A DNA stretch of 64,000 nucleotides from Sneathiella marina (GTDB lineage: Bacteria > Pseudomonadota > Alphaproteobacteria > Sneathiellales > Sneathiellaceae). Under the pieces are notes generated by a model. The model was not told where the DNA came from and did no database searches. It was given only the letters and a program-made list of their open reading frames with translations. The translations under genes were made by a program, and so were the position numbers. The stretch is from assembly GCF_023746535.1 (NCBI RefSeq), contig NZ_CP098747.1, forward strand, positions 1 through 64,000, in the 5' to 3' direction. Shown one piece after another: positions 2-50,262 of this stretch. Position 1 is the stretch's first letter, and every line of letters starts with the position of its first letter.

Positions 2-1414
2 ATGAGCCACGATGACTCACAGGGCATCTCCGCTGCTAATCAGGATATTTGGGGCAAAGTCCGAGAAAGATTGAGAGCGGAATATGGGGAAACAACCTTT
101 AATTCCTGGCTCAAGAATATTGAATTGGAAAAAGTCACCAAAAGCCATGTCAATATGACGTTACCTACCCGGTTTCTGCGAGATTGGGTAATTAATAATT
201 ATGCGTTGCGGATCCGCCAGCTTTGGTCCTCAGAAGATGCGCAGATTCAATCGATTGATATCCATGTGAAATCCTCTGCGAAACAGCTGTCGCCGAGACG
301 TAAACCTGCAACCATTGGTCTGGGTGAAGCAAAATCGTCGTTCACCGCCGATAGCAATGGACAGGATAAACTCGAGCAGAATGCAGCGCTGACGGCGCAG
401 CTCGATCCTCGATTTACGTTCGATAATTTTGTTGTCGGAAAATCAAACGAACTGGCGCATGCTGCGGCCCGGCGGGTCTCTGATGCCAAAGACACGGTGC
501 CCTTCAATCCTCTATATCTGTATGGGGGTGTCGGGCTTGGCAAAACCCATTTGATGCATGCAATTGGCCATGCTATTGCCGCCAACAGCCCCGACAAAAA
601 GGTCATGTATCTTTCGGCGGAAAAATTCATGTACCGCTTTATCCGGGCTTTGCGGTTCAAAGATACAATGACTTTTAAGGATCAGTTCCGCTCGGTCGAT
701 GTTCTGATGATTGATGATGTTCAGTTTATTGCCGGAAAAGATTCCACACAGGAAGAGTTTTTCCATACCTTCAATGCGTTAGTCGATCAAAACCATCAAA
801 TTATTATATCAGGTGACCGTTCGCCGACAGACCTGGAAGGAATGGAGGAACGCATGCGATCCCGGCTTGGCTGGGGATTGGTTGCGGATATTCATCCAAC
901 TGATTACGAACTCCGGCTTGGCATCTTGCAATCGAAAGTGGAAAACGCGAAAATCTCCATTGAACCGAGAATTCTTGAATTTCTTGCTCATCGGATCACC
1001 TCCAATGTCCGCGAATTGGAAGGAGCGTTAAATCGCGTCCTTGCTTACTCTGATTTGGTGGGCAGAACTGTTACCCTTGAGAGCACTCAAGAAGTCTTAC
1101 GCGATTTACTACGGGCCAATGATCGGCGCATCACCATTGAGGAAATTCAGAAGCGAGTGGCAGAACATTTCAATATCCGGATGTCTGAGATGCACTCCGC
1201 CCGGCGGGCGAGAGCGGTTGCCAGGCCGCGACAGGTCGCCATGTATCTGGCCAAGCAGCTAACATCCCGTTCTTTGCCAGAAATCGGTCGCAAATTTGGC
1301 GGACGGGACCATACGACAGTGATGCATGCTGTTAGAAAGATTGACGAGCTTTGCGAAGGCGACCAATCTCTATCGGAGGATATCGAGCTTCTGAAACGAA
1401 TGCTTGAAGGGTAA
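2..1414 (+). CDS. dnaA: Chromosomal replication initiator DnaA
   Basis: DnaA is the AAA+ initiator that binds DnaA boxes at oriC, melts the origin and loads the DnaB helicase. The 470-residue protein shows the family layout: an N-terminal oligomerisation domain (about 1-90), a variable linker, the ATPase with Walker A GGVGLGKT at 175-182 and Walker B VLMIDD at 234-239, and a C-terminal DNA-binding domain. That last domain carries the DnaA signature around 407-447 (GRKFGGRDHTTVMHA). The ATG at base 2 gives a normal length, but the window opens here, so its ribosome binding site and a possible longer start cannot be seen. The putative oriC is not beside it but some 36 kb away, upstream of hemE. 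Confidence 0.97.
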   Translation: MSHDDSQGISAANQDIWGKVRERLRAEYGETTFNSWLKNIELEKVTKSHVNMTLPTRFLRDWVINNYALRIRQLWSSEDAQIQSIDIHVKSSAKQLSPRRKPATIGLGEAKSSFTADSNGQDKLEQNAALTAQLDPRFTFDNFVVGKSNELAHAAARRVSDAKDTVPFNPLYLYGGVGLGKTHLMHAIGHAIAANSPDKKVMYLSAEKFMYRFIRALRFKDTMTFKDQFRSVDVLMIDDVQFIAGKDSTQEEFFHTFNALVDQNHQIIISGDRSPTDLEGMEERMRSRLGWGLVADIHPTDYELRLGILQSKVENAKISIEPRILEFLAHRITSNVRELEGALNRVLAYSDLVGRTVTLESTQEVLRDLLRANDRRITIEEIQKRVAEHFNIRMSEMHSARRARAVARPRQVAMYLAKQLTSRSLPEIGRKFGGRDHTTVMHAVRKIDELCEGDQSLSEDIELLKRMLEG

Positions 1415-2113: not shown

Positions 2114-3451
2114 TTATCTTTGGACCGAAAAAACCTCCCATTTGTCGGGAACACCTTTTAATACCTGTAGGCCTTTGCTAATAAACGTAAAACTTCTATT
2201 TCCCGTCATCAAATCGTTGACGGTTCGGGAAACAAGAACCTCATTACTTTTAGCAATGCTTTCAATTCGTGCGGCAATATGAACTCCCGTTCCGACGATA
2301 TCATCACCACGCCGTTCGATTTCACCGGTATGAATGCCAATACGTACCGGTAACCCCATTTCCCGCAACCGCTCACTAACTTGCAACGCACATTCAACGG
2401 CTTTACTCGGGCGTTCAAACGTCGCGACTATACCGTCCCCGGTTGAAGAGACGAAATTGCCTTCATATAACAAAACCTGTTCTTTACAAACATTGTCATG
2501 ACGGTCAAGAGTATCTCGCCAGACGTCATCCCCCTGCTGATTGAGTTTCTCGGTTGATCCAACGATATCCGTAAATAAGACCGTCGCCAGCATTCGGTTT
2601 TCCGCTTTGCCGTTTGCCTGAATCCCTGTTAAAAATTTACGGGTTTCAGAAATTGTCTGTTCTATGTCTCCGACCCAGAAAAGATGCCCGCCGTTACCTA
2701 CCTCAACGAAGAGACTGTCGGGCAGCAATTCCGCCAGCTGTCGGCCTGCTGCCATCGGAACCTGATTGTCATCCTGCCGATGCAGAACAAGCGTCGGGAC
2801 ACGGACGGCGGCCAGAATATCCAAAACGTCAATCTTGAAATTTACTTCGAAATACCGCGCCATTGCTGTCGGCGGACTGCCGTAACGTTCAATGCGGCCA
2901 TACATTTGCTGCATCGCCTTATCTTCTGCCAATTCCGGTGCCAAGACTTTTAGGGCCACACCACCGCTACCCCAATCTTCGAGCCATTTCCACAGATTAT
3001 TCCGCCGGATTTCGAGGTCAAACATTGAAGGGTATTTTTCTGATTTACAGGCCTTGCCATAAGACCCGAAAGTCACAATGTGGCTTACTCGAGATGGATG
3101 TGTCGCCGCAAGGACAAACGCCATTGGACCTCCTTCTGAATGTCCAAATACTGCGGCCCTTTTGCTGCCGCATGCATTTAAAACAGCCAGCATATCGTCT
3201 GCCCGTTCTTCAAGAGATGGAACGCCCTCAATGGCATCGGACAATCCCTGACCCCTTTTATCGAAGGTAATGACACGTGCAAATCCAGACAGGTGCCGCA
3301 GAAATCGGGTAAACCCGGGAAAATCATGAAGCATTTCTACGTGAGAAATCAGGCCATGTGCGATGATGATATCGATATCTCCATCCCCCATAACTTGATA
3401 GGCAATAGAAAGGCCGTGACTGACTGTATATTGGGTTTGAGAACGCTCCAT
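2114..3451 (-). CDS. Alpha/beta-hydrolase fused to class III adenylate/guanylate cyclase
   Basis: A 445-residue two-domain protein. Residues 1 to about 265 are an alpha/beta hydrolase with oxyanion region AHGL, nucleophile elbow GHSEGG (Ser105), a later Asp and the His of GGHLFW. Residues from about 280 to the end are a class III nucleotide cyclase domain with the metal-binding FTDIVGST segment, STGDG, and the conserved IGIHTGE and GVHIAARIE stretches. It may make cAMP or cGMP in response to a small-molecule ligand or substrate bound by the hydrolase domain; that link is inference. It is antisense to, and separates, dnaA/HAD and dnaN. No membrane segment is seen, so it should be cytoplasmic. 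Confidence 0.88.
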   Translation of the reverse strand: MERSQTQYTVSHGLSIAYQVMGDGDIDIIIAHGLISHVEMLHDFPGFTRFLRHLSGFARVITFDKRGQGLSDAIEGVPSLEERADDMLAVLNACGSKRAAVFGHSEGGPMAFVLAATHPSRVSHIVTFGSYGKACKSEKYPSMFDLEIRRNNLWKWLEDWGSGGVALKVLAPELAEDKAMQQMYGRIERYGSPPTAMARYFEVNFKIDVLDILAAVRVPTLVLHRQDDNQVPMAAGRQLAELLPDSLFVEVGNGGHLFWVGDIEQTISETRKFLTGIQANGKAENRMLATVLFTDIVGSTEKLNQQGDDVWRDTLDRHDNVCKEQVLLYEGNFVSSTGDGIVATFERPSKAVECALQVSERLREMGLPVRIGIHTGEIERRGDDIVGTGVHIAARIESIAKSNEVLVSRTVNDLMTGNRSFTFISKGLQVLKGVPDKWEVFSVQR

Positions 3452-26874: not shown

Positions 26875-28298
26875 CAAGAATTCCCCCGCTTCTGCTGTTT
26901 CCATTGATCCATGAAGGTCTTGCCCTGCGGCGCCGGAAGGTCACGGACCGACGTCCAGCCTTTCATCATGGGCAGGGATTTCAGGCGACCTTTTTTACCG
27001 GCCAGCAGACGGAGCGCCATGGCGCCACATCGGGTCACCAGCCTGTATAGGGCCGGACGTTTGGCGAAAAACGCCCAGAGACCAATGCCCCAGCGCTCCG
27101 GTTTCGGCGTCACCTGGGTTTCAAAAGATTTCTCCCGCCAGTGGCGCATGATTTTCGGCAGCGGAATGCGCACCGGGCAGACTTCCTCGCAGCGCCCGCA
27201 AAAGGTGGAGGCGTTGGGCAGATGCCGGGCCTCTTCCAGTCCAACCATCTGCGGATTGAGGGCGGCACCGATGGGGCCGGGATAGACCCAGCCATAAGAA
27301 TGACCGCCAACAGCCTGGTAAACCGGGCAATGGTTCATGCAGGCACCGCATTTCAGGCAGCGCAGCAAATCCTGTTTATCGGTGCCGATCAGCTCACTGC
27401 GGCCGCTATCCAGCAGGATCACGTGAAAATTGGCCGGACCATCTATGTCGTCTTTTCGCTTGGGCCCGGTGGAAAAGGTGGTGTAGACGGACATTTCCTG
27501 ACCGGTGGCAGAGCGGGCCAGCAACCGCATCAGGGTGCTGGCATCTTCCAGTGTCGGCACGATTTTCTCGATACTGGCAACGGCAATATGGGTTTTTGGC
27601 AGGCTCTGGGTCAGATCGCCATTGCCTTCATTGGTGACAATAACGGTAGAGCCGGTTTCCGCGATGAGAAAATTCGCCCCCGTAATACCCACATCAGCGG
27701 CAACATATTTTTCCCGCAGCACGCTGCGCGCTTCATTGACCAGGGCTTGCGGATCGGTTTGCCGCTCGGTCAATCCATATTCCTGATGTTTCACGTGAAA
27801 CAAATCACTGACCTGCTCTTTTGTTTTATGCAGGGCAGGGGCGATGATATGGCTGGGATATTCATGGGCCAGCTGGATAATATATTCCCCCAGATCCGTC
27901 TCTATGGGTTCAATATTGTTCTCGCTGAGGAAATCATTGAGGGCCATTTCCTCGGTGATCATGGATTTCCCCTTGGTCACCGTTTTTGCGTCCGCATCGC
28001 GGCATATTTTCAGCACCGCGTCCCGCGCCTCGGCGTAGCTATTGCACCAATGCACTTTGCCGCCTTGCAAAAGCACCTGATCCTCGAAATATTCCAGATA
28101 GTAATCCAGATTCTCAATGACGTGGTTCTTGATATCCACGGCGGTGTCGCGCAAGTCCTCAAATTCCGGCAGTTCCTCGACGCGGGCGGCGCGGGCCACG
28201 GAAAACCCGGTTTTAACCTTGGAAAATGCGGTCTGGATATCCTTGTCCTGCAGGGCCTCATGGGCCCCGTCCTTGAAATGGCGACTGGTGACCTGCAT
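26874..28298 (-). CDS. lutB: Lactate utilization iron-sulfur protein LutB
   Basis: The 474-residue Fe-S subunit of LutABC. A LUD domain occupies the first two thirds. Two 4Fe-4S motifs follow: CLKCGACMNHCPVY near 310 and FCGRCEEVCPVRIPLP near 365. It passes electrons from lactate to the respiratory chain on the cytoplasmic side of the membrane. A perfect 16-base parS site (27787-27802) lies inside the gene and is read through as VSDLFHVKHQ. It overlaps both neighbours by one base. Confidence 0.93.
   Translation of the reverse strand: MQVTSRHFKDGAHEALQDKDIQTAFSKVKTGFSVARAARVEELPEFEDLRDTAVDIKNHVIENLDYYLEYFEDQVLLQGGKVHWCNSYAEARDAVLKICRDADAKTVTKGKSMITEEMALNDFLSENNIEPIETDLGEYIIQLAHEYPSHIIAPALHKTKEQVSDLFHVKHQEYGLTERQTDPQALVNEARSVLREKYVAADVGITGANFLIAETGSTVIVTNEGNGDLTQSLPKTHIAVASIEKIVPTLEDASTLMRLLARSATGQEMSVYTTFSTGPKRKDDIDGPANFHVILLDSGRSELIGTDKQDLLRCLKCGACMNHCPVYQAVGGHSYGWVYPGPIGAALNPQMVGLEEARHLPNASTFCGRCEEVCPVRIPLPKIMRHWREKSFETQVTPKPERWGIGLWAFFAKRPALYRLVTRCGAMALRLLAGKKGRLKSLPMMKGWTSVRDLPAPQGKTFMDQWKQQKRGNS
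27787..27802. promoter_or_regulatory. parS site (ParB binding) inside lutB
   Basis: The 16-base palindrome TGTTTCACGTGAAACA, identical to the other three copies in the window and to the bacterial parS consensus. It lies in the coding sequence of lutB, about 8.3 kb on the left side of the putative oriC. ParB should nucleate here and spread. Confidence 0.9.
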
Positions 28299-33648: not shown

Positions 33649-34510
33649 TCCCTTTCAATCCTTCCAGAACATGATCCCGCAACCCTGCATCCACCTCAGG
33701 CCGGGTACCGAACCAGGCCTCAAAACCGGCTTTCGCCTGATGCAGCAGCATGCCGATCCCCTCAATGGTTTCATTGCCACGTAATTTTGCCGCTTTCAGC
33801 AATTCTGTCTGTTGCGGCGCATAAATAATATCGGTGACGATAGCTGTCGCCTTTAAGGCGTCCAGCGGCAGATCCAGCGACGGCTGGCCGGACATGCCAA
33901 GGCTGGTGGTATTGACCAGAAAATCCGCTTCCGCCAGACAGTCGCTGCGCGCATGCCAGTCAACCACTTCCGCTTTTTCTCCAATATGCGCGGCCAGGTT
34001 CTCTGCGCGTTCCCGGGTCCGGTTGGTCATCAGGATCCTTGCAAATCCCATATCAACCAGCGCAACCGCAACGGCGCGGGCCGCGCCGCCCGTCCCGACA
34101 AGAACCGCCGTCCCACCTTGCAAGGCGGCAACATCGGGATGTTCGTTCAGGGAGTCCATAAATCCGACGCCATCGGTATTACGACCGATCATCTCGCCGC
34201 TCTCACCCAGGACAATGGTATTGACCGCGCCGATACGACGGGCAGACGGATCCAGCACATCCACAATATCCATCGCCGTTTCCTTTAACGGAATGGTCAG
34301 GTTGGTGCCGCGAAAGATCTCGCCTTTTTGTAAAGATTCTGCCGGCAGGCGTCGCAACACCGCTTCCAGATCCTCCGGCCGGACCGGCAGGGCCGCATAT
34401 CCGGCATTGAGTTTGTATTTATCGATCCAGTAGCCATGCAGGCGTGGCGACAGGGAATGGCTGAGCGGCCATCCCATCACCCCGGCGGTTTTTTTCATTT
34501 CCGATGTCAT
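33641..34510 (-). CDS. aroE: Shikimate dehydrogenase
   Basis: Reduces 3-dehydroshikimate to shikimate with NADPH in aromatic amino-acid synthesis. The 289-residue protein shows the substrate-binding [16 protein letters not shown], catalytic Lys in [10 protein letters not shown], Asp in GRNTDGVGF, and the NADP Rossmann loop [13 protein letters not shown]. Start codons at 34510 and 34498 are both possible; the first overlaps the maf stop by four bases and is preferred for coupling. Confidence 0.95.
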
Positions 34511-35121
34511 ATAGTCAACCCGATTTTATGATTACGTAAAAAATCCAGAAGCGGCAGCAGCGGCAGCCCCAAAATCGAGAAAAAATCCCCCTCAACCCGG
34601 CTGAACAGATGGGCCCCCAGGCCTTCCAGATGATAGGCGCCAACGGACGATAATATGGCGTCCCCGGCCTCGGCCAGATATTTTTCCAGAAAGGCGTCGT
34701 CAAAGGGACGCATGGTCAAACTCGCCTGATTGACATGATGCCAGAGGATCGTCCCGCCTTTGGCGACACAAACCGCATTGCTCAACTGGTGGGACTTGCC
34801 TTTCAGGCTGAGGAGATGGGCCCGGGCATGATCCATATCCGGCGGTTTGTCGAACCAGATGCCATTGCAATCAAGGATCTGGTCCGCCCCGATGACGAAC
34901 GCCGCCGGATAATTGCGTGAAATCCGGCTGGCCTTCAACTCCGCAAGGGCGACGGCTGTGTCGGACGGTGGCGCCATGGCGCCGCGCAGGGCGTGCTTGA
35001 CCTCATCCTCGTCAATGGCCGCCGGTATTTTTGTAAAATCCAGTCCGGCATTGGTGAGCAGGCGGGCCCGCGAAACACTGGCGGAGGCAAGAACTAGCTC
35101 AGGCTGAGAGGCGTCGGCCAT
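34507..35121 (-). CDS. Maf-family nucleotide pyrophosphatase
   Basis: A 204-residue Maf protein that hydrolyses non-canonical or excess nucleotides to monophosphates. It has the family N-terminus LVLASASVSRARLL, catalytic IGADQILDC, and the late SSVGAYHLEGLG and FFSILGLPLLPLL blocks. YhdE and YceF subfamilies differ in substrate (dTTP/UTP versus m7GTP), and this protein cannot be assigned with confidence. It sits between ppsR and aroE in the order conserved near many alphaproteobacterial origins. Confidence 0.92.
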   Translation of the reverse strand: MADASQPELVLASASVSRARLLTNAGLDFTKIPAAIDEDEVKHALRGAMAPPSDTAVALAELKASRISRNYPAAFVIGADQILDCNGIWFDKPPDMDHARAHLLSLKGKSHQLSNAVCVAKGGTILWHHVNQASLTMRPFDDAFLEKYLAEAGDAILSSVGAYHLEGLGAHLFSRVEGDFFSILGLPLLPLLDFLRNHKIGLTI

Positions 35122-35124
35122 TTC

Positions 35125-35949
35125 CTATCGAACCCCTGCCTGTTCCTGGCGTTTGGTAAACAGGGTGATAATCTGAGCCGCCGTTTCCTCCACCGATCGG
35201 CGGGAAACATCAATAATCGGCCAGCTTTCGCGTGTGCATATTTTACGCGCCATAATCACTTCTTCCTTGATCCGCTCCCGGTCCACATAATCCGTATCAA
35301 CGGTTTCATGCAGGCTGAGCAAGCGGTTTTTACGTATTTCCGACAATCTCTCCGGACTGGTGGTCAAGCCAACAACAATGGGATTGCTGAGCGAGAACAG
35401 CTCCTGCGGCAAGGGAATTGCCGGGACAATGGGAACATTGGCGGTCTTGAATCCCCGATGGGCCAGATAAAAGGATGTCGGCGTTTTCGAGGTACGGGAA
35501 ACACCCACCAAAACAATATCGGCTTCATTCAGGCCTTCGGACATCTGGCCGTCATCATGGGCCATGGTATAATTCAGCGCTTCAATCCGGCCAAAGTAAT
35601 TCTGATCAAGAATATGTTGCCGTCCGGGCAGCTGTTGAATTTCCTGACCGAGAAAACTGGAAAAAGCGGCCAGCACCGGATCAAGCACCGAGGAGCAGGA
35701 GACGTTCAGTTTCTGGCAGCCTTTTTCCAGTACGTCCCGCATTTCCTTATTGACCAGTGTATAGAGGACCAAACCCGGTTTTTGTTCAATGGAATCAAGG
35801 ATATCATCCAGTTGACGAACGGTTCTTGTCAATGTCCATACATGCTCGATCGGCGCCACGCCCTCAAATTGCACGAGGGCCGCCTTGGTCATGGATTGCA
35901 ACGTTTCGCCGGTGGAATCCGAAACCAGGTGAAGATGAAATTGCGTCAT
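35125..35949 (-). CDS. ppsR: PEP synthetase regulatory kinase/pyrophosphorylase (PpsR, DUF299)
   Basis: A 274-residue DUF299 protein that reversibly phosphorylates PEP synthase or pyruvate phosphate dikinase, using ADP for the kinase step. It has HLVSDSTGETL at the N-terminus and the P-loop GVSRTSKT at 149-156, followed by LAHRGFKTANVPIVP. It is the gene immediately left of the putative oriC and is transcribed away from it, as in Caulobacter where the equivalent gene is numbered first on the chromosome. Confidence 0.92.
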   Translation of the reverse strand: MTQFHLHLVSDSTGETLQSMTKAALVQFEGVAPIEHVWTLTRTVRQLDDILDSIEQKPGLVLYTLVNKEMRDVLEKGCQKLNVSCSSVLDPVLAAFSSFLGQEIQQLPGRQHILDQNYFGRIEALNYTMAHDDGQMSEGLNEADIVLVGVSRTSKTPTSFYLAHRGFKTANVPIVPAIPLPQELFSLSNPIVVGLTTSPERLSEIRKNRLLSLHETVDTDYVDRERIKEEVIMARKICTRESWPIIDVSRRSVEETAAQIITLFTKRQEQAGVR

Positions 35950-35969
35950 AAAAGAACCGGCCTGCCCCT

Positions 35970-35987
35970 TGTGGAATATGTGAATAA
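35970..35987 (-). promoter_or_regulatory. Tandem DnaA-box-like nonamers in putative oriC
   Basis: Two nonamers lie end to end on the displayed strand: TGTGGAATA (35970-35978, near-match) and TGTGAATAA (35979-35987), the reverse complement of the DnaA box TTATTCACA. Confidence 0.6.
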
Positions 35988-36065
35988 CAGGGATAACATG
36001 ACCATCAGGAAAAGCCCAAAAATTTCCTCCCCGCAGACCGGTTTTTTTAAAAGCACTTACCCGCC

Positions 36066-36074
36066 TGTGAATAA
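36066..36074 (-). promoter_or_regulatory. DnaA box in putative oriC
   Basis: TGTGAATAA, the reverse complement of TTATTCACA, fits the TTWTNCACA consensus. It is followed 5 bases later by a related TTATCCGGT at 36080-36088 in the opposite orientation. Confidence 0.6.
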
Positions 36075-36345
36075 CTGTCTTATCCGGTGACCCGAAATGA
36101 GGAAGAATTCAGCAGCCGACGGACAGAATAAAGTTATCCCCGTTTTCCCTGTTTTTGGACAAAAACAAATCCGCCTTTATTCAGGCTTCGTACACAATGT
36201 CGAGAAGGACTGGATTTTATCCCCAGATTTTCTATAAAGGATGTGAATTGAATTTAATCCCCAGCTCTCACAGCCATAAACAACAACTACAACCTTTTTA
36301 TATAAATATATATAGAAGGGGATAGAAATTTAGAAGGTACAGTTC

Positions 36346-37392
36346 GTGACAACGACACCAGCGAAACTCATGCTCAGAGCTCTTTCCGGCGAGATAACCG
36401 AGCGACCCCCATTCTGGCTCATGCGTCAGGCCGGGCGCTATCTTCCTGAGTATCGGGCTACCCGGGCCCAAGCCGGAAACTTCCTCGATCTTTGCTACAA
36501 TCCCAGGCTTGCAGAGGAAGTGACTTTGCAGCCTCTGCGCCGCTACGGCATGGATGCCGCCATTCTCTTTGCCGATATCCTGCTGATCCCCGATGCCCTG
36601 GGACAGCCGTTGGATTATCTCGAAGGGGAAGGTCCGGTTCTCGATCCTGTTCGCTCGGCAGGGGAGTTGTCAAAACTGAACCCGGAGAATATCCATAAGA
36701 CACTCGAGCCGGTTTACGAGACGGTTTCCAGATTGAGTTCGTCCATTCCATCGGACTGTACCCTGATCGGATTTGCCGGGGCGCCCTGGACCGTGGCGAC
36801 TTACATGGTCGAAGGTCGGGGGTCCAAGGATTACGTCAATATCAAGAAATGGATGTATGGCGACCCAGCAGGATTCTCGGCGCTGATGGATATTCTGGTC
36901 GAGGCGACAATTGCCTATTTGCTGAAACAGGTTGAAGCGGGGGCGGAAGTCGTCCAGATATTTGATACCTGGGCCGGTGTTCTGCCCGATGACGAGTTCC
37001 GTAAATGGGTGCTGGGACCGACAAAACGCATTGTCGAGGGGTTGAGGCATCATCACCCCGATTTACCCGTCATCGGCTTTCCCAAGGGCGTTGGCGGCAA
37101 TATTATCGACTTTGTCGAGGAGACCGGCGTGACCGCTGTCAGTCTGGATACGGGAACGCCGCTGGATTGGGCGGCCCGAAATGTACAGACCCGGGTTCCG
37201 GTACAGGGAAATCTTGATCCTATTTTGCTGGTTCAGGGCGGCGCCGCCATGGAAAACCGAATTGCCGAGATCATCAATCGACTGAAGTCTGCGCCGTTTA
37301 TTTTCAATCTTGGTCACGGCATTATTCCGCAAACACCGCCGGAGCATGTGGGGGCCCTGAGCCAGCTGATCCGGGACGGGTCTCCCTCATAA
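36346..37392 (+). CDS. hemE: Uroporphyrinogen decarboxylase
   Basis: Decarboxylates the four acetate groups of uroporphyrinogen III to give coproporphyrinogen III in heme synthesis. The 348-residue protein has the signature PPFWLMRQAGRYLPEY near the N-terminus, the catalytic Asp of FADILLIPDALG, and IQIFDTWAG-like VVQIFDTWAG. The start is GTG preceded by AGAAGG, and the AT-rich oriC edge lies directly upstream. It begins a hemE-hemH-hemJ cluster. Confidence 0.97.
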   Translation: MTTTPAKLMLRALSGEITERPPFWLMRQAGRYLPEYRATRAQAGNFLDLCYNPRLAEEVTLQPLRRYGMDAAILFADILLIPDALGQPLDYLEGEGPVLDPVRSAGELSKLNPENIHKTLEPVYETVSRLSSSIPSDCTLIGFAGAPWTVATYMVEGRGSKDYVNIKKWMYGDPAGFSALMDILVEATIAYLLKQVEAGAEVVQIFDTWAGVLPDDEFRKWVLGPTKRIVEGLRHHHPDLPVIGFPKGVGGNIIDFVEETGVTAVSLDTGTPLDWAARNVQTRVPVQGNLDPILLVQGGAAMENRIAEIINRLKSAPFIFNLGHGIIPQTPPEHVGALSQLIRDGSPS

Positions 37393-37404
37393 AGGAGTGT
37401 TGCC

Positions 37405-38436
37405 ATGGCCCGCAAAGCAGTTGTGCTGTTTAACCTGGGAGGTCCGGACAGTCTGGAGGCGGTTCAGCCGTTTCTGTATAACCTGTTTATGGATCCGGCC
37501 ATTATCCGGCTGCCCAAACCCTTGCGGTTTCTTGTCGCCAAGCTGATTTCGTCGCGCCGGGCACCGGTGGCGCAGGAAATCTATGGCCATCTTGGCGGAT
37601 CCTCACCGCTTTTGCCGCAAACCGAGGCCCAGGCGGCTGCCTTGAAAACTGCCCTTTCGGACAGCAATCCGGTGGATGAATATGAAATTTTTATCTGCAT
37701 GCGCTATTGGCATCCGCTAAGTGCACAAACGGTTCAATCCGTGAAATCCTACGGCCCCGATGAAATTATTCTGGTGCCGCTATATCCGCAATATTCGTCA
37801 ACCACATCAGCCTCTTCCCTTGCGGACTGGCACGGCGCGGCAAAATCCGCGCAACTGGAGGTTCCCACGGCAACGCTCTGTTGCTATCCCCTGGAAAACG
37901 GCCTGATTTCAGCTTATTCGACCTTGATTGCCGAGAAAATTGAGGGCATGGACCTGAGCCGGACCCGGATTTTATTTTCGGCCCATGGGCTCCCGCAGAA
38001 AATCGTCGATGCGGGGGATCCCTATCAATGGCAGATCGAACAAACGGCAACCGGCATCGTTGAGAAGCTGGCCCGACCGGAGCTGGACTGGAAAATCTGC
38101 TATCAAAGCCGGGTGGGTCCCCTGAAATGGCTGCAGCCTTCTACCGATGATGAAATAGCGGCTGCCGGGGCGGCGGGTCTCTCGCTTGTGATTCTGCCCA
38201 TTGCTTTTGTCTCGGAACATTCTGAAACCCTGGTGGAACTGGATATTGAATACGCGGAACTGGCGAAAAAATCCGGTGTTCCCCACTATAAACGGGTTGA
38301 CACTGTCGGTGTGTCCGACGATTTTATTGCCGGACTTGCCGACGTGGTCCTGCGCCTGACGCCAGGCGCGGTAACCAGCGGGCAGGGTGGGCGCATCTGC
38401 CCGGGCAAATTTTCAGATTGCGCGTTGGCGTCGTGA
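37405..38436 (+). CDS. hemH: Ferrochelatase
   Basis: Inserts ferrous iron into protoporphyrin IX, the final step of heme synthesis. The 343-residue protein has VVLFNLGGPD, GGSSPL, PLYPQYSSTTSAS and the catalytic His region FSAHGLPQ, with the later SEHSETLVELDIEY carrying the conserved acidic residues. It starts 12 bases after hemE. The C-terminal 25 residues are a poorly conserved tail ending near a CPGKFSDC stretch. Confidence 0.95.
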   Translation: MARKAVVLFNLGGPDSLEAVQPFLYNLFMDPAIIRLPKPLRFLVAKLISSRRAPVAQEIYGHLGGSSPLLPQTEAQAAALKTALSDSNPVDEYEIFICMRYWHPLSAQTVQSVKSYGPDEIILVPLYPQYSSTTSASSLADWHGAAKSAQLEVPTATLCCYPLENGLISAYSTLIAEKIEGMDLSRTRILFSAHGLPQKIVDAGDPYQWQIEQTATGIVEKLARPELDWKICYQSRVGPLKWLQPSTDDEIAAAGAAGLSLVILPIAFVSEHSETLVELDIEYAELAKKSGVPHYKRVDTVGVSDDFIAGLADVVLRLTPGAVTSGQGGRICPGKFSDCALAS

Positions 38437-47621: not shown

Positions 47622-47637
47622 TGTTTCACGTGAAACA
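47622..47637. promoter_or_regulatory. parS site upstream of mnmG
   Basis: A perfect TGTTTCACGTGAAACA palindrome in the 218-base gap before mnmG (47560-47777), about 140 bases before its ATG and 11.3 kb right of the putative oriC. ParB bound here might also affect mnmG transcription. Confidence 0.93.
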
Positions 47638-49643: not shown

Positions 49644-50262
49644 ACCAGCCCCCTTTACCGCTGAGGAATTTCAGGACCAGACAAATGTTTCACGTGAAAC
49701 ATTGGACCATCTGAGGCGCTATGCCGCCTTGCTGGAGAAGTGGCAAAAGGCCATTAACCTGGTGGGAAAGTCGACGCTCCCCGATCTTTGGCGGCGGCAT
49801 ATGCTGGATAGCTGGCAATTGCTGTCCGGTGTCTCCCTATCGAAAGGGAGTTGGCTTGACCTTGGTAGCGGGGCAGGCTTCCCGGCGCTGGTCGTGGCCA
49901 TTGCCACGGAATTCGAGGTTCATGCAGTGGAAAGTGACCAGAGAAAATGCCTGTTCATGCAAAATGTTTCACGTGAAACATTGGCCGGTCTGACAGTCCA
50001 CCGGGCCCGGATCGAGGAAATTCCGCCTTTTTCCGTCGATGTGATCTCGGCCCGGGCGCTGGCACCGTTGGAAAAGCTGCTGGATTACGCGGCGCCCTTC
50101 GCCCATGCAAAAACAGAATTTTTGTTTTTAAAGGGACAAGATGTAGATGATGAATTGACCAATGCGTCTAAATGTTGGAATATGCAGGTGGAGAAATATC
50201 GTAGTTTAACAAGTGATGACGGCTGTATCGTGAAATTGACCAAGGTCAGCCGTCACTCCTAA
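49633..50262 (+). CDS. rsmG: 16S rRNA (guanine-N7) methyltransferase RsmG (GidB)
   Basis: Methylates N7 of G527 of 16S rRNA; loss gives low-level streptomycin resistance. The 209-residue Rossmann methyltransferase has [12 protein letters not shown] near 75 and the family block [12 protein letters not shown]. The start is GTG, inside mnmG. Two parS palindromes lie in the coding sequence, so the protein contains the same peptide NVSRETL twice. The site constrains the protein more than the enzyme needs. Confidence 0.95.
49686..49701. promoter_or_regulatory. parS site inside rsmG (first)
   Basis: Perfect TGTTTCACGTGAAACA, read in frame as part of NVSRET in RsmG. About 1.4 kb before parB. Confidence 0.93.
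49965..49980. promoter_or_regulatory. parS site inside rsmG (second)
   Basis: Perfect TGTTTCACGTGAAACA, 279 bases after the first rsmG site, a multiple of 93 codons, so it is read in the same frame and gives the same peptide. Confidence 0.93.

Follow-up and report, generated by a model that had tools for sequence, protein, structure and literature searches.

The divergent ppsR/hemE gap of Sneathiella marina is very probably its replication origin and carries a phased trinucleotide module widespread among Alphaproteobacteria

The origins of Caulobacter crescentus and Rickettsia prowazekii are reported to sit between hemE and the gene of the DUF299/COG1806 protein (PMC1914354), and hemE already serves as an indicator gene in origin prediction by Ori-Finder (PMC3794950). 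The W-box consensus TCCCCA has been described as a weak DnaA site in Caulobacter (PMC4285127). The published BUS of Bacillus subtilis consists of a DnaA box, a spacer, a trinucleotide array and an AT tract, all co-oriented (PMC8287927; PMC10721633). The published rule for DnaA-trios demands three consecutive 3'-NAN-5' units within 16 nt of a box; trios were missing in 15% of origins, for which deviant trios without the middle adenine were suspected (Pelliciari et al., PMC8287927). In the B. subtilis structure, Arg202 and Glu228 hold the trio G and Asn187 contacts the middle A; replacing this A with T or G impaired opening, whereas replacing it with C did not (PMC10721633).

We analyzed a 64,000-bp stretch of DNA (the window), comprising bases 1-64000 of the closed 4,067,215-bp chromosome of Sneathiella marina. 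Judged by HemE, the closest relatives with a name belong to Sneathiella. The genes and the gap concerned are the following.

2-1414, plus strand: dnaA (Pfam PF00308, PF08299)
35125-35949, minus strand: ppsR (DUF299/COG1806), left flank of the gap (NCBIfam NF003742, E 2.3e-102)
35950-36345: intergenic gap, very probable oriC, 396 bp, 41% GC, between the divergent ppsR (minus) and hemE (plus)
36346-37392, plus strand: hemE, right flank of the gap, GTG start (TIGR01464, E 4e-122)

The gap has the same flanks as the Cori of Caulobacter crescentus and the ori of Rickettsia prowazekii (PMC1914354), and hemE marks the origin as it does in Ori-Finder (PMC3794950). The origin is thus ordinary in place and kind, at a location already known for the class. 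The first-pass annotation, made from the sequence of the window, had placed an oriC here, about 36 kb from dnaA, in a 396-base divergent gap; the coordinates and both gene strands proved exact. The neighbors it listed, maf, aroE, coaE and dnaQ, are present beyond ppsR, with hemH, hemJ and rho beyond hemE, and near the contig start we found dnaA, dnaN, a recF-like gene and gyrB, again as it had described. Between dnaA and dnaN, the opposite strand carries a gene with alpha/beta-hydrolase and adenylate/guanylate-cyclase domains (2114-3451, minus). The distance between dnaA and hemE is 33.7-39.8 kb in the window and in 12 other genomes of the genus carrying both genes on one contig, a count leaving out G007 with its partial dnaA. 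A divergent ppsR/hemE gap of about 267-718 bp was present in 102 of 109 loci.

We sampled the GC skew in 40 stretches of 20 kb in addition to the window, covering 864 kb or 21% of the chromosome. All 19 stretches from 0.124 to 2.1 Mb have a positive skew; of the 18 between 2.2 Mb and the chromosome end, 16 are negative and two positive. The three stretches in the interval 64-124 kb show mixed signs. Near the switch back of the sampled skew, at 2,147,331, there is a dif-like palindrome, whose distance from 2.070 Mb, the position opposite 36 kb, is 78 kb; the search pattern gave four matches with one mismatch, and its reversed control one. The chromosome contains eight perfect parS 16-mers, four of which lie within 14 kb of the gap.

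27787-27802: parS, perfect 16-mer
47622-47637: parS, perfect 16-mer
49686-49701: parS, perfect 16-mer
49965-49980: parS, perfect 16-mer

The other four, at 211121, 3672979, 3690767 and 3882651, are 175-430 kb from the origin.

When the raw GC skew is cumulated over 224 contiguous kb spanning base 1, it is lowest at 122.6 kb and has a further, local minimum near 44 kb. These raw minima would suit an origin to the right of hemE, near either position, as would the changepoint estimate of 40-41 kb obtained from the third codon positions of non-overlapping long ORFs, where the minimum of the third-position skew also falls. However, only 39% of the long-ORF bases between 64 and 144 kb are on the plus strand, which pulls the raw skew down, so the minimum at 122.6 kb is displaced by gene-strand bias and misleads; we rejected the raw cumulative skew as an origin locator. 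Moreover, within the contiguous range from -80 to 144 kb no stretch other than the gap holds three or more box- or W-type sites. We consider an origin to the right of hemE highly improbable. The bootstrap 5-95% ranges of the third-position changepoint stay inside 34.4-50.3 kb at three ORF cut-offs, with ORFs chosen by length, some of which may not be genes. A split at 36 kb fits nearly as well as one at 40-41 kb, and splits at 0 and 122 kb fit worse. The cumulative skew around 36 kb, by which the first-pass annotation had proposed to check its origin, therefore gave a divided answer: the raw minimum lies elsewhere, at 122.6 kb, whereas the third-position changepoint includes 36 kb in its bootstrap range. 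The region 84001-124000 of the chromosome (L083, L084) has a lower GC content of 0.46-0.47 and a negative raw skew where a positive one is expected; it might be an insertion or inversion adding to the misleading raw minimum.

An origin beside dnaA, as in many bacteria, would reduce the hemE gap to a divergent promoter region. The nearby dnaN, recF-like and gyrB genes, the start of the contig at dnaA and the mixed raw skew between 0 and 36 kb are in line with this explanation, yet the 600 bp upstream of dnaA contain one box with one mismatch and no cluster, and 0 falls outside the bootstrap range obtained for the third-position changepoint. As for the promoter part, a simple sigma-70-like scan of 35850-36450 returned 0 sites versus 0.6 in shuffles, a model that alphaproteobacterial promoters may not fit, and the combined promoter and terminator scan of the same region found nothing. 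An Rfam scan of 34500-38200 gave zero matches at gathering scores.

Within the gap, we located the following elements; numbers of genomes refer to an alignment of 23 gaps of the genus, made up of the window and other genomes assigned to the genus, 23 of which were available.

35970-35987, minus strand: tandem DnaA boxes, TTATTCACA (35979-35987) and TATTCCACA with two mismatches (35970-35978)
35988-35996, minus strand: TTATCCCTG site adjoining the left box; TTATCCCTG in 22/23 gaps
36066-36074, minus strand: second perfect box, TTATTCACA, poorly conserved; exact in 2/23 and with at most one mismatch in 13/23 gaps
36134-36142, plus strand: W-box-like TTATCCCCG; TTATCCCC in 23/23 gaps
36217-36225, plus strand: W-box-like TTATCCCCA; exact in 14/23 gaps
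36254-36262, plus strand: W-box-like TTAATCCCC, on which the unwinding module is proposed to be anchored; TTAATCCCC in 11/23 gaps
36264-36272, plus strand: decayed trio-proximal DnaA box GCTCTCACA, matching at 4/8 positions; TTATNCACA in the sister clade
36281-36293, plus strand: trinucleotide array CAA-CAA-CTA-CAA-C, reading 3'-GTT-GTT-GAT-GTT-G-5' on the trio strand (minus)
36295-36314, no strand: AT-only tract of 20 bp, probable DNA-unwinding element by its sequence; AT-rich also across the alignment of the 23 gaps
36318-36324, minus strand: TATCCCC on the hemE side of the AT tract and pointing towards it; at least 15/23 gaps have TTATCCC with T or C as the next base

The two perfect DnaA boxes named by the first-pass annotation are present, both on the minus strand with their starts 87 bp apart, and its AT-rich stretch corresponds to the AT-only tract. 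Of 2000 samples drawn from a first-order Markov model of the gap, none had as many exact boxes (two, mean 0.01) or boxes with at most two mismatches (15, mean 4.4), and the three boxes with at most one mismatch compare with a mean of 0.37 (P 0.007), so the near-boxes of that annotation are a genuine excess. Over the whole window, TTATNCACA with at most one mismatch occurs 37 times versus 36 by chance and is not enriched; it is therefore the clustering of the boxes that counts, not their number. The 4.07-Mb chromosome has 108 exact copies of TTATNCACA (and 75 of the pattern read backwards), and among the 100 of these 108 places that were listed, the pair in the gap is the closest, at 87 bp, the next spacings being 402, 504 and 651 bp. 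Counting box- and W-type sites together, the gap has six per 396 bp, and every other 396-bp stretch in the 864 kb of scanned genome has at most three.

The conserved core of the gap is not formed by the two perfect boxes; the W-box-like sites are better kept. The comparison with relatives upheld the box at 35979, exact in 16 and with at most one mismatch in 21 of the 23 gaps, and did not uphold the one at 36066, while the best-kept sites were ones the earlier annotation had left unnamed. The position of the 35970 box is exact in 10 and within one mismatch in 20 of the 23 gaps. TTATCCC at 35990 and the core ATCCCC at 36257 are found in all 23, and the site at 36134 is followed at 36144-36150 by AATCCCC or TATCCCC in 12. 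Since the genus keeps W-type sites better than consensus boxes, origin prediction in Alphaproteobacteria could be improved. The Caulobacter Cori likewise combines strong boxes with W-box matches, and the TTATCCCC sites resemble its W-box TCCCCA (PMC4285127), which occurs in the gap at 36220-36225 and 36258-36263, as putative DnaA-binding sites matched by sequence only. Unlike in Cori, the strong boxes of the Sneathiella gap are TTATNCACA, and none of the 23 gaps of the genus contains the exact CtrA pattern TTAA-N7-TTAA, the G-box TGATCCACA or an E. coli-type IHF consensus, the last being a pattern that a looser site would escape.

At its hemE-facing end, the gap shows a module of fixed order: ATCCCC, one base, a DnaA box, a short spacer, phased trinucleotides and the AT tract. 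We searched for it in 190 distinct alphaproteobacterial gaps. The first part of this set derives from 109 loci, minus seven without a usable gap and five exact duplicates, plus the window, and the second from 118 loci, minus 14 without PpsR, three with long gaps and nine duplicates. The second part draws on 309 genomes with HemE, from which the best 30 and 80 of the next places by rank were taken, omitting those already in the set or at contig edges. Because loci were taken in rank order, the set leans to genomes with a HemE like that of Sneathiella, and near-duplicates remain in it. A profile built from the genus only found the module at 12 bits or more in 113 of the 167 gaps outside the genus, always on the hemE-facing strand, and in none of the shuffled gaps (5 × 167). 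Across the 864 kb sampled from the Sneathiella marina chromosome, the gap is its sole match, with the next best at 8.3 bits; this match of a class-wide conserved module at the gap alone also speaks against an origin to the right of hemE. With an iterated profile (E < 0.01), the module is present in 162 of the 190 gaps and absent from 28, including five Hyphomonas or Hyphomonas-like loci.

Rearranged loci separate the module from one or the other flanking gene. In L042 (6184-10001), three ORFs of 208-460 residues, two of them overlapping, stand between PpsR and hemE, and the module still adjoins hemE. In three genomes (L262, L273, L276), it adjoins PpsR with hemE about 1.2 kb away. L043, a 21-kb locus without PpsR, also has the module, as does L294, which appears to come from the same genome. 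Because these rearrangements part the module from either flank, it is probably more than a promoter, and the persistence of the module where hemE or ppsR is displaced adds to the arguments against a promoter gap with the origin beside dnaA, which we regard as having only a very slight chance of being correct. The insert beside hemE in L262 contains overlapping ORFs of 365 and 408 residues on opposite strands.

Gene context, sampled skew, the third-position changepoint, parS clustering, the dif-like site and the conservation of the gap agree, and we therefore identify the gap as the oriC of this chromosome with a probability of about 0.95. The location between ppsR and hemE claimed by the first-pass annotation is thus favored over dnaA by gene context, third-position skew, parS and conservation. 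We are nearly as confident that an origin of the hemE/DUF299 kind is the best explanation of the locus.

The trinucleotide array follows a strict phase. On the plus strand, C occupies five successive phases in 22-23 of the 23 rows of the genus (0.96-1.00), and in 139 other rows the frequency is 0.92-0.99 at the first four phases and 0.67 at the fifth; hardly any G occurs, and the middle base is variable. As the profile itself could impose the phase, we added a plain pattern search, C-N-[AT] four times followed by C without any G, in the 167 gaps outside the genus and 20 shuffles. The pattern matched 73 gaps on the plus strand and one on the minus strand, compared with a mean of 1.6 and a maximum of four in shuffles. 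The corresponding A-phase control matched 41 (eight on the minus strand, 10.2 in shuffles) and the T-phase control 31 (18 and 8.0), excesses that are weaker and less strand-specific than that of the C phase. CTA repeated three times occurs in seven of the 167 gaps on the plus strand and in three on the minus strand. Among the 73 matches, the middle base on the trio strand is T in 117, A in 96 and G in 79 of 292 units, so the array keeps the trio-strand G and not the middle A. At the position of the proximal box, the published trio rule (PMC8287927) qualifies two of the 23 rows of the genus and 38 of the 139 others; the window does not qualify.

The array shares with the B. subtilis BUS the order box, spacer, trinucleotides and AT tract in the same orientation (PMC8287927; PMC10721633). 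It differs in three respects: G at position 1 rather than A at position 2 is kept, a W-type site is the anchor kept best, the proximal consensus box being gone in Sneathiella marina, and in the DnaA of the genus Y or F takes the place of N187, which is essential in B. subtilis. One could argue that the site is oriC but the array is no DnaA-trio element, being conserved for some other role, for example in the hemE leader, in bending the DNA or in binding a different protein. The middle A read by B. subtilis DnaA is missing from most units, only two of the 23 members of the genus satisfy the published rule, middle T and G are the bases that impaired B. subtilis opening while the tolerated C is nearly missing here, and A- and T-phased runs are in excess as well. 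This view we nevertheless find unlikely, in light of the order and orientation shared with the published BUS, the conserved strand and phase, the C phase being the most lopsided of the three, the canonical CTA units interspersed in the arrays, and the persistence of the module where hemE is displaced.

We aligned the DnaA of the window to 8btg by phmmer and counted equivalent residues along the alignment. Asn187, Arg202 and Glu228 correspond to Y211, K226 and E252, respectively. The 187 position is N in Thermotoga maritima and Q in Aquifex aeolicus by the same alignments, and Q in E. coli. In the genus without the window, 16 of 20 DnaAs have Y and four F; among module-bearing Alphaproteobacteria (30 genomes queried, 29 matched, 28 covering the site), 24 have Y, three F and one N. 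The residue is thus aromatic in 47 of these 48 DnaAs, although rows of one lineage are not independent. A further 20 picked alphaproteobacterial DnaAs gave 11 Y, two F, three W, two H, one N and one S, while none of 50 sampled Pseudomonadota outside the class (the 30 best matches and 20 picked from the same list) is aromatic, with 16 A, 12 T, 11 Q, five N, four S, one L and one G. The Glu228 position is E in all compared DnaAs and the Arg202 position K or R. Given these residues and the mostly aromatic 187 position, the G pocket thus appears to be kept and the A contact replaced in DnaA, paralleling the array. Against such an altered reading stand the DnaAs outside the class, which mostly lack Asn at 187 as well, and the middle T and G, the bases least tolerated by B. 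subtilis DnaA. That the array works as DnaA-trios while mostly lacking the middle A, accompanied by the aromatic Y211, is therefore a tentative proposal.

The position, synteny and skew, the conservation of sites and the phasing of the trinucleotides come from computation; from the anatomy of the gap we infer the mechanism, including DnaA binding at the boxes and W-type sites. DnaA would occupy the boxes at 35970-35987, which face left, as well as several W-box-like sites of the form TTATCCC(C). Next to hemE, it would anchor on the W-type site at 36254, in the sister species together with the adjoining consensus box, and its filament would extend onto the minus strand across the array at 36281-36293. 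The AT tract at 36295-36314 would then melt and the helicase be loaded there, and ParB on the parS sites at both sides would segregate the origin region. This polarity of unwinding, from the anchor at the hemE end over the array to the AT tract, is probable. More speculatively, many Alphaproteobacteria may open oriC by a 3'-G-N-(T/A)-5' code instead of 3'-GAT-5', with a W-box anchor and an aromatic Y, F or W in place of Asn187; origin and initiator would then have changed their base reading together, and the clade of the window would have given up the consensus box on the array side. The slightly less than even chance we allow this scheme applies to it as a whole.

The variant combining G-phased trios of no fixed middle base with an aromatic DnaA residue looks new. 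Among open-licence PMC papers, we found no description of the module variant, no paper on a Sneathiella oriC as judged by title or start of the abstract, and nothing joining the DnaA-trio with Rhodospirillales. A conserved array here shows the suspected deviation from the middle A, in a class whose sampled DnaAs are mostly aromatic at 187. With short oligonucleotides and a single purified protein, variation in base reading by DnaA thereby becomes directly testable.

The trio-proximal box itself is exact in 11 of the 23 gaps of the genus, and two clades differ in box and prefix over 36254-36272 (the window versus L123-L144), with L004 and L005 as exceptions. In the clade of the window (12 rows), one row (L004) matches the box at 7/8 positions or more, and the W-type site has a TTA prefix in 11, all except L005. 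In the sister clade (11 rows), the box is exact in 11/11 and the prefix occurs in 0/11. Among the 162 rows, at least 7/8 box positions match in three of the 35 with the prefix versus 69 of the 127 without (Fisher 5.9e-7). When 161 of these rows are placed on a tree, however, independent pairs number about two for and 0.1 against a swap (median p 0.5), and the first set of 86 rows behaved alike (Fisher 7.5e-9; about 1.8 pairs for, 0 against, median p 0.5). Because tree pairing gives only about two informative contrasts, we do not claim an association between prefix and box loss beyond shared descent. A change in the helix-turn-helix of DnaA was also discarded as a cause of the loss as far as the stretch GRDHTTVMHA is concerned, since it is invariant in the 21 rows of the genus covering it, the window included.
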